A stretch of DNA of 30,459 bases from a virus, in the IMG/VR virus record IMGVR_UViG_3300030328_002792, positions 1-30,459 of that record; one strand, given 5' to 3'. The position numbers were made by a program, and so were the translations under genes. The notes under the pieces were generated by a model, which did not search any database, was not told the origin of the DNA, and saw only the letters and a list, made by a program, of their open reading frames with translations. Below are positions 21,494 through 29,644 of this stretch, in pieces. Each line of letters opens with the position of its first letter. Positions within the stretch are counted from its first letter, which is position 1.

Positions 21494-23311
21494 ATGGCTG
21501 TTCAAATTACCGGATCGCAAATTAAAAATAGCGAAATCGGAACATCAAAATTACAAGATAATTGTGTTACATCGCAAAAAATTCTTGATTCAAATATAAC
21601 ATCGGCAAAAATTGCATCAAGTGCGATTACATCGGCAAAAATCGCAAATGGCGCCATCGATGCAGCGGCAAAATTGGCGGATAATGTTGTCACATCGGCA
21701 AAAATTGATTTGACTGGAACATTCAATTTTGGGCCGGGTACCTTACAAGCGGGTAACCCATCAAACGCTTCTGATGTTGCTACAAAAAATTATGTTGATT
21801 CTGCGGTTTCATCGGATATATATTGGAAAGAACCATGCCGTGTTGCTTCCACGGCTAATATCAACCTTTCAAGCGCACCGGCTGCCATTGATGGCGTCAC
21901 ACTCGCAAACAACGATCGTGTATTGGTTAAAGATCAGTCTACGGCATCACAAAACGGTGTTTATGTTTTTGCTTCCGCTTCTAGTGCTATGACAAGAGCC
22001 ACCGATGCTGACAGCGCCGCGGAAATCAACGGTGCGGCTGTATTCATCAAAGAAGGTTCGACAAGTGCGGATCAAGGTTTTAATATGAATGCCGAGGTTG
22101 TGAATTTTGGCACCGATGCAATTACATGGGTACAATTCACCGGGTTGGGCCAAATAACAGCTGGAAATGGATTAACCAAAACAGGAAATCAATTGGATGT
22201 TGCTGTTGGAAATGGTATCCAAATATCAAGTGATGCCGTGGCATTTCGCGCCGGTGCCGCTTTGGATTTTGCCGGTGGTGATGTTGATGTTCAAGTTGAT
22301 GATTCATCCATCGAAATCAATGGATCCGGAAATCTTCAAGTTAAGGCAAACGGTATAACATCCGCCATGATCGGCACAAATCAAGTAACTGGAAGTGAAA
22401 TAGCAGCGTTGGCCGTAGCCACGGCAAACCTAGCCGATTCAGCCGTGACATCCGCCAAATTAGGCGCTTCAAGTGTTTCAGCGGTTAAGATTGCTTCAAA
22501 TGCGGTTACATCGGACAAAATCCAATCAAACGCGGTTACGGAAGCAAAAATAGCTACATCGGTTGCTGGTGATGGTTTATCCGGTGGTAATGGTTCACCA
22601 TTGGCCGTTTCCGTTGATGATTCTGGTATTGAAATTGCATCGGATACATTACAATTGAAAAATCTTGGGGTTTCAACGGCAAAACTAGCCGATAATTCCG
22701 TGACATCGGCAAAAATTCTTAACGCAAATGTGACCGGTCCAAAATTAGCCGCAACCGTTGCCGGAAATGGTTTGATCCAAAATGGATCTGGAAATCTTGA
22801 TATATCCGCCGGTGATGGATTGGAATTTTCCGGTGTTAATATCCAAGTTAAATTGGGCGCCGGTCTTGAAATTCAAGGCGGAGCGGTTGATATAGAAGTT
22901 GATGATTCTACTTTAGAAGTCAATGTAAGTAATAATGAATTGCAGGTTAAAAACCTTGGGATTACATCCGGAAAATTAGCAAATGCAAGTGTTCAAACCG
23001 CCAAAATTGGCGATGATCAAGTGACTTTTGCAAAGGTTGGATGGCGTATGTATCAACAACTTTCAACAATATCCGGTGGATCTACAACCACGATTGATTT
23101 GGCCCGCGCTTTAGATGCTAATGCTGTAAACGGTGTAATGGTTTATAAAAACGGTTTGGCTTTGTTAAATCAAACCGCTTTGAGCGGATCACCTGGAAAC
23201 AGTGATGAATTTAGTGTTTCACCTGATGGTGGTGCTGGATCCGTGGCACGTTTGAGTTTTGGCGCTGCCTTGGCTGATTCGGATTCCATTTTGATTTGGT
23301 ATTTGACATAA
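21494..23311 (+). CDS. Tail fibre protein with VTSAKI-type repeats
   Basis: 605 residues. The N-terminus has tandem degenerate repeats of about 10 residues (ITSAKI, VTSAKI, ...), which recur in clusters to about residue 510 and are typical of fibrous trimeric phage fibre shafts. At about 98-215 lies a globular insertion (NASDVATKNYVDSAV ... NNDRVLVKDQS ... QNGVYVF). Other parts carry repeated GNGL / VDDSxxEI beta units. The C-terminal ~85 residues form the module shared with the previous gene. It probably makes the receptor-binding fibre. AGGAG precedes the ATG; a terminator follows. Confidence 0.8.
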   Translation: MAVQITGSQIKNSEIGTSKLQDNCVTSQKILDSNITSAKIASSAITSAKIANGAIDAAAKLADNVVTSAKIDLTGTFNFGPGTLQAGNPSNASDVATKNYVDSAVSSDIYWKEPCRVASTANINLSSAPAAIDGVTLANNDRVLVKDQSTASQNGVYVFASASSAMTRATDADSAAEINGAAVFIKEGSTSADQGFNMNAEVVNFGTDAITWVQFTGLGQITAGNGLTKTGNQLDVAVGNGIQISSDAVAFRAGAALDFAGGDVDVQVDDSSIEINGSGNLQVKANGITSAMIGTNQVTGSEIAALAVATANLADSAVTSAKLGASSVSAVKIASNAVTSDKIQSNAVTEAKIATSVAGDGLSGGNGSPLAVSVDDSGIEIASDTLQLKNLGVSTAKLADNSVTSAKILNANVTGPKLAATVAGNGLIQNGSGNLDISAGDGLEFSGVNIQVKLGAGLEIQGGAVDIEVDDSTLEVNVSNNELQVKNLGITSGKLANASVQTAKIGDDQVTFAKVGWRMYQQLSTISGGSTTTIDLARALDANAVNGVMVYKNGLALLNQTALSGSPGNSDEFSVSPDGGAGSVARLSFGAALADSDSILIWYLT

Positions 23312-25620: not shown

Positions 25621-27066
25621 TTAAATTAAAAATAATGCCTTTTGACGTTGGATTTCACGGATTTTTTCCGCTGCTTCTTCTTCATTCAAATCTGGATATA
25701 ATTCCATCATTGCATCAATAGGAGCGATTAAATTGGTGGCTAGTTTTTCCTTTATGTCGGCGCGTTGTTCTCTTTTTTCTTCCACCGATAAACCGATTCT
25801 AGCATAACGTATTTTATAACCGGATTCAGGCAAATTGTAACCCAAAAACCGATTGGCCATCATTGCAGCTAATGACAATGTCATTTGATCGCCACGTTCA
25901 AATGATGGTTTATATCTTGCTTGCGCTTCTCTCATCGATTCTTTTGATACGGCTATGGCGTAACCGGAACGTGGATCCCCTGAAAGTCTTTCGATATCAC
26001 CGGGATTGATTCCAGCCATTTGGGCCACTTTTCGTTCATATTGTATAACCGCTTCTAATACCGATGATGGATCACCACCTGGTTGGAATTGTCCAATCAT
26101 CGGTTGTCCAACATTATCAGGATCTTGGGTAAATACTAGAATAGAAGCGGGATCCGTGGAAATTGCGGCACGTTTGGCGGCGGTGTCCGTGTCTCTTATA
26201 TTCAATCCTGCCAATTGTAAACCGGCAATGTACCGTTGAGGGAATCCCGTGTCACGCGTCAAATGCAGCCAGTAGGTATATAGAGCGGCGGCTGTGAGGG
26301 AACCATAAACAACCTCAGCATTTTCAAAACTATTAAATAATTTACCCGTGATTTCAGCATGATAAATCGAGTAGGGAATAACCGGTAAACCATCATCAAA
26401 TCGGAATGGGTAATTATCACCATCCATTTCATTTTCCAAATATTCCGTGGTCCAATCCTCACCAAATCCGCCATCGTTTTTTATTTCCATTATTTTCATT
26501 TTTGGATTTTTCATATCACGTAGATCAAATACATCCGCGGTCCAAATCACCTCTTTGGATTCCGGATGGTGTCTTAACCTCAATTCATATAGGAATCGAA
26601 GATGGTTTGGATCACCGGATGATGATTCACAATAAATCAAATCAGGTGTTACGGGCCTGAATAACAATCCATTGGAATCACTGATATCAACCCGCATGAA
26701 CATTTCACGACATCCAATCGTAAACATTTGGAATGATTGCATCATCGCCCAAAGACCTGATTTATAAATCAATCCATCATCGCCCAAAAATCCTTCCATT
26801 TCTTGACGTGATGCATCTACACCAATCATTGGTGGTTCATTATACAATGCCGATAATGATTTGGATGTGGCTTTGAATACATTGGATGACATATCACTAA
26901 CGCCCCATGCTGCCCGTCGTTCTCTTGATACGTGGCGCGCTAATTCCGATTCCAAATCATCTTGCCATTGTCCCCTTAACATTCGAACACGTAGAGCGTT
27001 ATGTTCCCAACGTTCATTGGTTTCCATAGAAGGAGCGGCGGGTTTTGGATTAAAATCTAACATCAT
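25621..27066 (-). CDS. Portal protein
   Basis: 481 residues, typical length. The dodecameric portal is the DNA gate of the capsid. Characteristic parts are the helical N-terminal region with RRAAWGVSDMSSNVFKATSKSLSALYNEPP, the central LTAAALYTYWLHLTRDTGFPQRYIAG, and IERLSGDPRSGYAIAVSKESMREAQARYKPSFE near the crown/stem region. It lies between the large terminase and the scaffold, the expected order. AAGGAAA precedes the ATGs at 27066/27063. Confidence 0.88.
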   Translation of the reverse strand: MMLDFNPKPAAPSMETNERWEHNALRVRMLRGQWQDDLESELARHVSRERRAAWGVSDMSSNVFKATSKSLSALYNEPPMIGVDASRQEMEGFLGDDGLIYKSGLWAMMQSFQMFTIGCREMFMRVDISDSNGLLFRPVTPDLIYCESSSGDPNHLRFLYELRLRHHPESKEVIWTADVFDLRDMKNPKMKIMEIKNDGGFGEDWTTEYLENEMDGDNYPFRFDDGLPVIPYSIYHAEITGKLFNSFENAEVVYGSLTAAALYTYWLHLTRDTGFPQRYIAGLQLAGLNIRDTDTAAKRAAISTDPASILVFTQDPDNVGQPMIGQFQPGGDPSSVLEAVIQYERKVAQMAGINPGDIERLSGDPRSGYAIAVSKESMREAQARYKPSFERGDQMTLSLAAMMANRFLGYNLPESGYKIRYARIGLSVEEKREQRADIKEKLATNLIAPIDAMMELYPDLNEEEAAEKIREIQRQKALFLI

Positions 27067-27077
27067 AATAATTTCCT

Positions 27078-28511
27078 TTATCCTATTCTAAATGATCCGT
27101 GTATTGGTGTTTGATATTTGATATCTATGATTGGTACGACTGCATAACGCAAACTATCAAGCGCATGTTTGTGTTCACTTCTCGCATCCATACTACCACT
27201 TTTTTTCAATGTCCACCGACGAAAAGACCGAATCAACGTTTCACATCGTGGATGTACCGTAAAACGCTTTTTCATCATTCTATCATGTAATAACTGACAT
27301 CCATAATAAACACTCCACCGTGGTTTGTGTGCGGTGTGAATTCTGAATGGCATGGTTCCCTGTGGATATTCCAACACATGTTCCAATGCACTTCTTAACA
27401 TCGCATTTGACATTCTACCGCCATGTCTACCTCCCCGGTGTGCAATATCACCGGTCCATCGTGTAATCATGTTTGGTGTCAATCCATTACGTGATAACAT
27501 CCGCAAAATTGCACGGGCATGTGTCTCAGCCATTGACCGTTCGTTTTGATTTCCACCGCTGTAATATTCATCAAGTACATATACATGTGGATTATCTGAT
27601 TCTGTCATGTCGATGGCACATAAAATAACCGCTTGGGCACCGGGTAATGAACCGTGATCAATGCCAATTGAAAATCTATAATCACCATCATTTGGACATG
27701 GTTTATCTGATATCATTTCCTCGGAAAAACATTCAAACACCAATCCATCCGGCCGGCCGGCTTCCCAACTGCCTTCTAGACGGGCTTGACGGTCTAATGG
27801 TAGATATGTATCGGCTATGCGGTCAATATCGGATTGTTGTAGCAATGAACGACACCCCAATGGCGTTACGTTTTCCACTGTAAGCGCCGCCACAATATCT
27901 TGGATTTTTCCATCGTCCACCATTTGTTTCAAATATCCACAATCTTGGCCAATCGGCGTCATTGTCATGACCATCCTTCCACGTTTCCGAAGTAACCGAG
28001 CGGCTAATTCACCAAAGATTGAAACGGGCGGTGGTTCATCGATCCAAACCATGTCAACGGTTCCACTAGCTACACCCAATGTTCCTTGGTTGGTTGTTTT
28101 GATGCGCACCAAAGAACCATTTTTGAATGAAATAATCGGTGTTTTCCCTTTGAAACCTTTTCCAGGTACATACTCACAACCATCCGCCAATTCAGCCGGT
28201 GGAATCAAATCATATATTTTTCCTTGCACGGTTTTTGATTGTTCCCAGCTATGAACAATCACCCAAATTTCCTTGGGCCCATCCGGTATATTTTTGTATG
28301 GATGTCGATTCAATGCGTAAAAAATCATTTCTGCGGCGCCGGCTGCCGTTTTTCCCAATTGATTTCCAGCTCTAAATAGTGTTATCGGTGCTGTCGATTG
28401 TAAAAACGCCAATTGTGGTTTGGTAGGTGTGAACCATGCCAATGGATCCGCGGTTGTAACATCGCGCATTTTCAATAATGTTTTGGTAATACTGGCGATA
28501 TTAATGTTCAT
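27078..28511 (-). CDS. terL: Terminase large subunit
   Basis: 477 residues. ATPase: GNQLGKT (49-55, Walker A), WIDEPP (156-161, Walker B with catalytic E159) and MTMTP (motif III, 182-186). Nuclease: SIGIDHG (D285) and HALDSLRY near the C-terminus, the acidic metal-binding residues of the RNase H-like fold. It pumps DNA into the prohead and cuts it. Its ATG overlaps the stop of the small gene upstream (ATGA), and the portal follows after 11 bases. Confidence 0.95.
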   Translation of the reverse strand: MNINIASITKTLLKMRDVTTADPLAWFTPTKPQLAFLQSTAPITLFRAGNQLGKTAAGAAEMIFYALNRHPYKNIPDGPKEIWVIVHSWEQSKTVQGKIYDLIPPAELADGCEYVPGKGFKGKTPIISFKNGSLVRIKTTNQGTLGVASGTVDMVWIDEPPPVSIFGELAARLLRKRGRMVMTMTPIGQDCGYLKQMVDDGKIQDIVAALTVENVTPLGCRSLLQQSDIDRIADTYLPLDRQARLEGSWEAGRPDGLVFECFSEEMISDKPCPNDGDYRFSIGIDHGSLPGAQAVILCAIDMTESDNPHVYVLDEYYSGGNQNERSMAETHARAILRMLSRNGLTPNMITRWTGDIAHRGGRHGGRMSNAMLRSALEHVLEYPQGTMPFRIHTAHKPRWSVYYGCQLLHDRMMKKRFTVHPRCETLIRSFRRWTLKKSGSMDARSEHKHALDSLRYAVVPIIDIKYQTPIHGSFRIG

Positions 28512-28678: not shown

Positions 28679-29644
28679 TCACCACGGGATATTGTACATT
28701 TCTTTTTGAATTTTTCTATATTCTTCTATATCGTCAAGTATACCACTTTTCATGATATACCGGCCTATGGTTTCACTACATTGGGGGACAATGGCATTTC
28801 CTAGGGCTTTAAATCTGTCCACCCGATTGGAAATCCCATCATCCATTCTACAAAGCGGGGATTCAATCGGTGTTGTGTTCCAATAGTTTCTTTTGTGTAT
28901 CCTTCCATTTTCGCCGCTTCTATATTCAAACTGTTTTTTCTTTTCCACTGTGACATCGTGCAAGGATTGTTTTTCGCTTCGTTCGTGGATGGTGTTGGAA
29001 GGTTCACACCTTGTTCCATCATCAATTGGATTTGAATTCCAAGATCTATTGGAATATTCCCTTTTGTGTTGTATTTCTTTTGATATTTTTCGTTCCTCTT
29101 TTTCCACAATTCCAAATTTCTTAATTGTGTACATTTTAACGGGGTACGCAACAAAAAAGATCCTTTCTCTTTGATGCGGCGCGCCTTCATCCGATGCACG
29201 TACATCGATCCATTCCACATCATACCCGATTTTGGATAGCGATGAGATGACGATATCCATTCCTCGTTCTTTTTGAGTGATTGCTGTGACATTTTCAGCG
29301 ATTGCGATTCGTGGTCGTACCATATTAATGATTCGTAACATTTCAAACCAAAGACCGGACCGCGCACCATTGGCGATTCCTTTTCGTTTTCCGGCTTGAC
29401 TGATATCTTGACATGGGAAGCCTCCGCAAATAATGTCCACAATGTCAATTGTTCCATGTTTGATCTCCTTTATATCATCATAGATTGGAACATCCGTCCA
29501 ATGTTTTTTCAATACCTTTTGGGCAAATGCGTTTTGTTCACACTGCCAAATGGTTTTTGAATTTGGAATTGCACGTTCCAAACCTAATTCAAAACCACCG
29601 ATTCCGGAAAATAATGATCCAATTGTTATTTGTTTATTCATCAT
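28679..29644 (-). CDS. DNA cytosine-5 methyltransferase
   Basis: 321 residues. Motif I LFSGIGGFELGLE (11-23), motif IV GGFPCQDIS (74-82, catalytic C78), motif VI ENVTA (117-121), motif VIII QRERIFFVA (158-166), and near the C-terminus motif X ALGNAIVPQCSETIG. The target-recognition region between VIII and X is short and of unknown specificity. The enzyme adds a methyl group to cytosine C5, probably for anti-restriction. It lies between terminase genes. A second gene in the +1 frame covers most of it (see 28801-29457); all motifs here are in one intact frame. Confidence 0.93.
   Translation of the reverse strand: MMNKQITIGSLFSGIGGFELGLERAIPNSKTIWQCEQNAFAQKVLKKHWTDVPIYDDIKEIKHGTIDIVDIICGGFPCQDISQAGKRKGIANGARSGLWFEMLRIINMVRPRIAIAENVTAITQKERGMDIVISSLSKIGYDVEWIDVRASDEGAPHQRERIFFVAYPVKMYTIKKFGIVEKEERKISKEIQHKREYSNRSWNSNPIDDGTRCEPSNTIHERSEKQSLHDVTVEKKKQFEYRSGENGRIHKRNYWNTTPIESPLCRMDDGISNRVDRFKALGNAIVPQCSETIGRYIMKSGILDDIEEYRKIQKEMYNIPW
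28801..29457 (-). CDS. Overlapping gene nested in the cytosine methyltransferase, +1 frame
   Basis: 218 residues entirely inside the methyltransferase gene on the same strand, +1 frame. The ATG has a textbook AAAGGAG (29471-29465) 7 bases upstream, which does not lie at any methyltransferase start. The protein carries YPKSGMMWNG (74-83), LPTPSTNEAKNN (153-164) and LNPRFVEWMMGFPIGWTDL (198-216). As I remember, such motifs recur in phage proteins found with cytosine methyltransferases, which suggests a conserved overlapping family; I could not search. Both frames keep conserved motifs over the last ~60 bases, a strong sign of dual coding. Function unknown, perhaps linked to target recognition. 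Confidence 0.7.
   Translation of the reverse strand: MEQLTLWTLFAEASHVKISVKPENEKESPMVRGPVFGLKCYESLIWYDHESQSLKMSQQSLKKNEEWISSSHRYPKSGMMWNGSMYVHRMKARRIKEKGSFLLRTPLKCTQLRNLELWKKRNEKYQKKYNTKGNIPIDLGIQIQLMMEQGVNLPTPSTNEAKNNPCTMSQWKRKNSLNIEAAKMEGYTKETIGTQHRLNPRFVEWMMGFPIGWTDLKP

Follow-up and report, generated by a model that had tools for sequence, protein, structure and literature searches.

A conserved gene nested in the +1 frame of a phage C5-cytosine methyltransferase gene very probably encodes the beta subunit of the enzyme

One phage methyltransferase appears to be encoded twice over in a single stretch of DNA, as a catalytic half and, in a shifted frame, a recognition half, and the arrangement was found to be conserved across very diverse phages. 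The window (the whole stretch analysed here, 30,459 nucleotides of the IMG/VR record IMGVR_UViG_3300030328_002792) contains a 321-residue methyltransferase ORF (alpha), and a 218-codon ORF in its +1 frame (beta) was originally predicted to be a real dual-coded protein, perhaps modulating or partnering the methyltransferase. Based on sequence comparison, structure models and analogy, we consider that the two frames very probably encode a two-polypeptide C5-cytosine methyltransferase of the M.EcoHK31I kind, with the nested gene as its beta subunit. The two ORFs and the putative start sites of beta are as follows.

28679..29644, minus strand: alpha, C5-cytosine methyltransferase of 321 residues with motifs I–VIII and X and without motif IX (Pfam DNA_methylase, alignment)
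28801..29457, minus strand: beta, nested ORF in the +1 frame of alpha, 218 residues from the ATG at 29457 (ORF listing, homologs; PHROG 1008 at 3e-18)
28801..29370, minus strand: beta from its second start (M30), 189 residues, the start favoured by conservation (homologs align from M..xVFGGKC)
29465..29471, minus strand: AAAGGAG, putative ribosome-binding site of the first beta ATG (7-base spacer)
29378..29384, minus strand: AAAAGGA, putative ribosome-binding site of the second beta ATG (7-base spacer; conserved in the relatives L007, L010 and L011)

The predicted ORF is intact and begins with an ATG, and the minus-strand sequence around this start (TATAAAGGAGATCAAACATGG) consists of AAAGGAG, a 7-base spacer and the ATG, as had been claimed. 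Both SD–ATG pairs (29457 and 29370) are kept in the three closest relatives (L007, L010 and L011), in which the SD of the first ATG is AAAGGAG (L010 and L007) or TAAGGAG (L011). Residues 1–29 of beta exhibit no frame-specific constraint. Conservation among the beta homologs begins at around the second ATG, and the DNA between the two ATGs, which encodes alpha residues 63–91, diverges in the pattern of a methyltransferase-only region, so that the true start of beta may be the second SD-preceded ATG, a choice that these sequences favour rather than prove.

The alpha frame contains the catalytic part of the enzyme. It matches Pfam DNA_methylase at 8.7e-48, aligned only up to profile position 252 of 324, and its phmmer match to M.HhaI is confined to residues 10–168, ending after motif VIII. 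Motif IX in the catalytic frame, the mark of a monomeric canonical C5 methyltransferase, is absent from alpha by alignment, motif scan and Pfam. In the AlphaFold model of alpha, residues 1–170 are well ordered, residues 201–281 are disordered and residues 287–300 form a helix (the motif X helix); Foldseek matched this model to HhaI and HaeIII over about 170 columns, and as modelled alpha is without a folded small domain. The elements of the two frames that bear on this point are the following.

29408..29416, minus strand: alpha catalytic motif IV, PCQ (invariant in the alignment)
28781..28816, minus strand: alpha motif X (RFKALGNAIVPQ), in the alpha frame and overlapping the end of beta (alignment)
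28802..29044, minus strand: alpha residues 201–281, disordered in the model (pLDDT <50), the same DNA encoding the putative target-recognition region and motif IX of beta (beta-coding divergence pattern in homologous DNA)
28810..28869, minus strand: putative beta motif IX, RLNPRFVEWMMGFPIGWTDL (hhalign to canonical C5-MTase motif IX)
28987..29001, minus strand: beta LPTPS motif, putative target-recognition region (single-chain homologs have the same LPTP segments in-frame, after motif VIII and before motif IX)

In the transcribed direction, the methyltransferase gene directly precedes the large terminase (27078–28511) and portal (25621–27066) genes. No restriction gene was seen among the ten other scanned ORFs of the window. 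A second methyltransferase-like ORF, whose best PHROG is phrog_67 ('DNA methyltransferase', 3e-47), lies at 545–1216 on the plus strand, at the opposite end of the record, and a 605-residue tail-fibre or head-decoration-like ORF lies at 21494–23311, also on the plus strand, with nearby head, portal and terminase genes on the minus strand.

Beta contains all three of the peptides that had been picked out in it (YPKSGMMWNG, LPTPS and FVEWMMGFPIGWTDL), and CRMDDGISNRVDRFKALGN in the methyltransferase frame overlaps FVEWMMGFPIGWTDL in the other, the same DNA being read twice as claimed. Using hhalign, the nested motif RLNPRFVEWMMGFPIGW was aligned to C5-methyltransferase motif IX (E 1.9e-4), with RxLTPREC.RLQGFPD as the partner segment, and beta as a whole aligned with the VIII–X segment of the single-chain relative L208 (E 3.6e-9). 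In single-chain relatives such as L208, L240 and L195 the beta-type motif IX lies in-frame between motifs VIII and X, preceded by LPTP segments in L208 and L240. Since beta matches motif IX, which alpha lacks, and the segment is found in relatives either in-frame or on split chains, the best reading of beta is that it is the enzyme's small domain, detached from the rest. That it carries the target-recognition region in addition to motif IX is the best explanation of the frame-of-selection evidence given below. The partner role first proposed for the nested protein is thereby supported and made specific, since the nested frame would hold the motif that the host frame lacks.

Beta could instead be a real protein that is no subunit, such as an overprinted regulator, an inhibitor or an unrelated methyltransferase partner. 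Its AlphaFold model is poor (mean pLDDT 61.5, pTM 0.30), too poor for a fold search; no family was found for it in Pfam or NCBIfam, and searches of solved structures with the single sequence and with a profile gave nothing meaningful. The poor model and the lack of a Pfam family would be compatible with such a protein. This reading is nonetheless improbable, given the putative motif IX of beta and the relatives in which the same segment is fused in-frame to the catalytic domain or is located on a split chain that also bears motif X (L165, L170, L183 and L216). PHROG 1008 was matched by all 41 of the aligned nested proteins, and thus the nested family is already catalogued, though usually unannotated.

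Similarity alone is no proof of a nested gene, because the conserved motifs of the methyltransferase are echoed, as a shadow, in the +1 frame. On this ground the ORF could be an untranslated by-product, kept open and conserved-looking by the conserved codons of the methyltransferase; the beta profile does, in its N-terminal half, pick up weak +1-frame hits in canonical methyltransferases, and to judge from these hits the similarity in that half is partly such a shadow. An open run of at least 222 codons in the +1 frame was obtained in 0.02% of 5000 trials in which synonymous codons were re-drawn, with codon usage taken from three other genes of the window and the methyltransferase protein kept, and in none of 5000 in which the methyltransferase's own codons were permuted, so that the length of the open frame exceeds what chance would give. 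Canonical enzymes frequently have +1 stops at columns where the nested enzymes have almost none, which argues against a by-product.

The four-fold degenerate sites of the methyltransferase frame were then compared at 67 viral loci, with the +1 frame unconditioned, as information over the expected base composition. This information starts at 0.12 bits ahead of the overlap, rises to 0.64 in the catalytic part of the overlap and to 1.49 in the motif-IX window, and returns to 0.12 after the beta stop; in the canonical controls it is 0.19 in the catalytic stretch. The third positions of alpha codons are around 95% fixed in the motif-IX window and free directly past the beta stop. The test was rerun on loci selected by alpha, and beta-selected loci were left out because the search pattern FVEWMMGF would make it circular. 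Freely varying synonymous sites that break the +1 frame would have spoken against the original prediction of dual coding, and the result is the opposite, with strong constraint on synonymous sites in the parts in which the nested frame shows conservation.

Divergence by codon position gives a corresponding picture. Several hundred related pairs, beta-selected loci included, were compared; these pairs are non-independent, and the figures are effect sizes and not p-values. Outside the overlap, differences at alpha codon positions 1, 2 and 3 are 0.245, 0.145 and 0.558 before it and 0.230, 0.126 and 0.561 after the beta stop, the pattern of an ordinary gene. Between motifs VIII and IX they are 0.464, 0.266 and 0.211, and in motif IX 0.395, 0.166 and 0.183, which is the pattern of a gene in the +1 frame. 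At motif IX the same switch is seen when the window is compared with its three closest relatives, while in their VIII–IX region all positions diverge alike. DNA that encoded alpha only would be expected to show the opposite of this excess at position 1 and deficit at position 3, and together with the fixed third positions that are freed directly past the beta stop, this makes an untranslated by-product exceedingly improbable. Both frames are under selection, each within its own part of the overlap.

Homologs of beta are abundant in phages, the opposite of the absence that would have told against the nested gene. The search for them yielded 116 records from named phages (at E up to 1) and 124 confirmed homologs in IMG/VR contigs, of which 80 were kept. 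In 86 of 86 beta-selected loci the beta homolog overlaps a methyltransferase ORF at the same +1 offset, and the spacing between motifs IX and X varies from 47 to 86 nt with a constant frame relation. A single-protein scan of bacterial genomes gave no match, and a subsequent search with the alpha alignment recovered many loci. E. coli genomes were also searched for a locus resembling that of EcoHK31I, with a Salmonella phage relative as the query, and four chromosomal matches annotated as DNA cytosine methyltransferase were obtained.

A second set of 159 loci was found by the methyltransferase frame alone. An alignment of nested-type enzymes was used to find it, and prevalence in this set is therefore that among their relatives and not among all C5 methyltransferases. 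Of these loci, 86 are clearly nested and keep motif X in alpha; a further 20 have a +1 beta that overlaps alpha, but their motif X is unassigned (including the split forms L165, L166 and L215); in 20, frame 0 itself contains a canonical motif IX; and the remainder are single-chain, split or unassigned. As classed, none of the 159 loci combines a motif IX in frame 0 with one in a +1 beta, the classes of L185 and L190 being doubtful as they are based on weak beta hits. In a tree of the catalytic part, the nested enzymes are separate from the canonical ones with one exception (L185), and the single-chain and split forms, which are rarer than the nested form among these relatives, fall within the nested group, mostly in one actinobacterial branch.

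The single-chain relatives with beta-type motif IX in frame 0 (L160, L178, L182, L189, L195, L208, L220 and L240) are mostly actinobacterial. In the split relatives (L165, L166, L183, L216 and L170) the catalytic ORF stops after motif VIII, and motif IX is found on a second ORF that overlaps it or lies downstream. L079 and L144 have two genes of nested or beta type side by side on one contig. The adjacent CDSs gp5 and gp6 of Mycobacterium phage Bora (L087), both annotated 'DNA methylase' and overlapping by 26 bases, look like a split pair of catalytic and recognition chains.

Single-chain relatives with the same segment in-frame after motif VIII are also what would be expected if programmed frameshifting from alpha produced one fused chain instead of a separately initiated beta. 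Such a chain would end at the beta stop, without motif X, which stays in alpha, and close relatives have kept both of the SD-preceded ATGs; frameshifting is therefore very unlikely.

We thus return to two separately initiated subunits. Frame 0 would provide the AdoMet-binding catalytic domain (motifs I–VIII) together with motif X, and the nested +1 frame the small domain missing from alpha, comprising motif IX and the target-recognition region. Ribosomes would initiate beta internally, at a site of its own, and the two chains would assemble, like those of M.EcoHK31I, to form a single active orphan modification enzyme, whose methylation would probably shield the phage DNA from host restriction. 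We also lean slightly towards a broader proposal, namely that across this large phage clade the whole target-recognition region, and not motif IX alone, is written in the nested frame, alpha's own reading there being an unstructured passenger, so that selection would pass from frame 0 to +1 and back to 0 within one gene. If so, few same-strand overlaps in phages would be as widespread and as deeply conserved as this one.

Annotation often keeps the catalytic frame alone (six further phage records that share this nested layout, read for their features, annotate nothing there but the methyltransferase frame), and the recognition half of many phage methyltransferases thus goes unlisted. Cloning what is annotated would bring beta along, but beta would be destroyed in a recoded or synthetic gene, and a specificity predicted from the alpha frame would be a reading of the wrong frame. 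Since single-chain, split and nested versions of one enzyme are present in this set, how a long dual-coding overlap originated can be tested directly.

A literature search limited to open-licence papers found no paper on nested phage methyltransferase subunits. In Paenibacillus phage Shelly, gp56 ('g55 internal gene') likewise occupies the corresponding place as a CDS annotated inside that of a C5 methyltransferase, but it is given as a hypothetical protein with its role not stated. The PHROG 1008 label, 'DNA methyltransferase', comes from annotation, whereas those of its members that were matched here are nested chains devoid of catalytic motifs. Lee, Kam and Shaw are reported to have described in 1995, for one bacterial enzyme and as the first such description, that the beta chain of M.EcoHK31I is read from another frame inside alpha. 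Its chain sizes are similar to those in the window.

M.EcoHK31I (YGGCCR) is a two-polypeptide C5 methyltransferase with motifs I–VIII and X in the large chain and motif IX in the small chain (PMC3404938), the same layout as in the window, the two being likened by motif layout. Its predicted target-recognition domain is placed in the large chain (PMC3404938), whereas here the frame of selection puts the region in the nested chain; a wholly nested recognition region would thus revise the published M.EcoHK31I assignment, provided that the enzymes are related. It is also a bacterial enzyme, in contrast to the present phage enzyme, for which no restriction gene was seen among the ten ORFs scanned. 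M.AquI (CYCGRG) similarly has motifs I–VIII on one chain and the distal recognition region plus motif IX on another, but its motif X is on the small chain, whereas that of the window is in the alpha frame. The M.AquI layout, absent from the window, is present in the relatives L165, L183 and L216.
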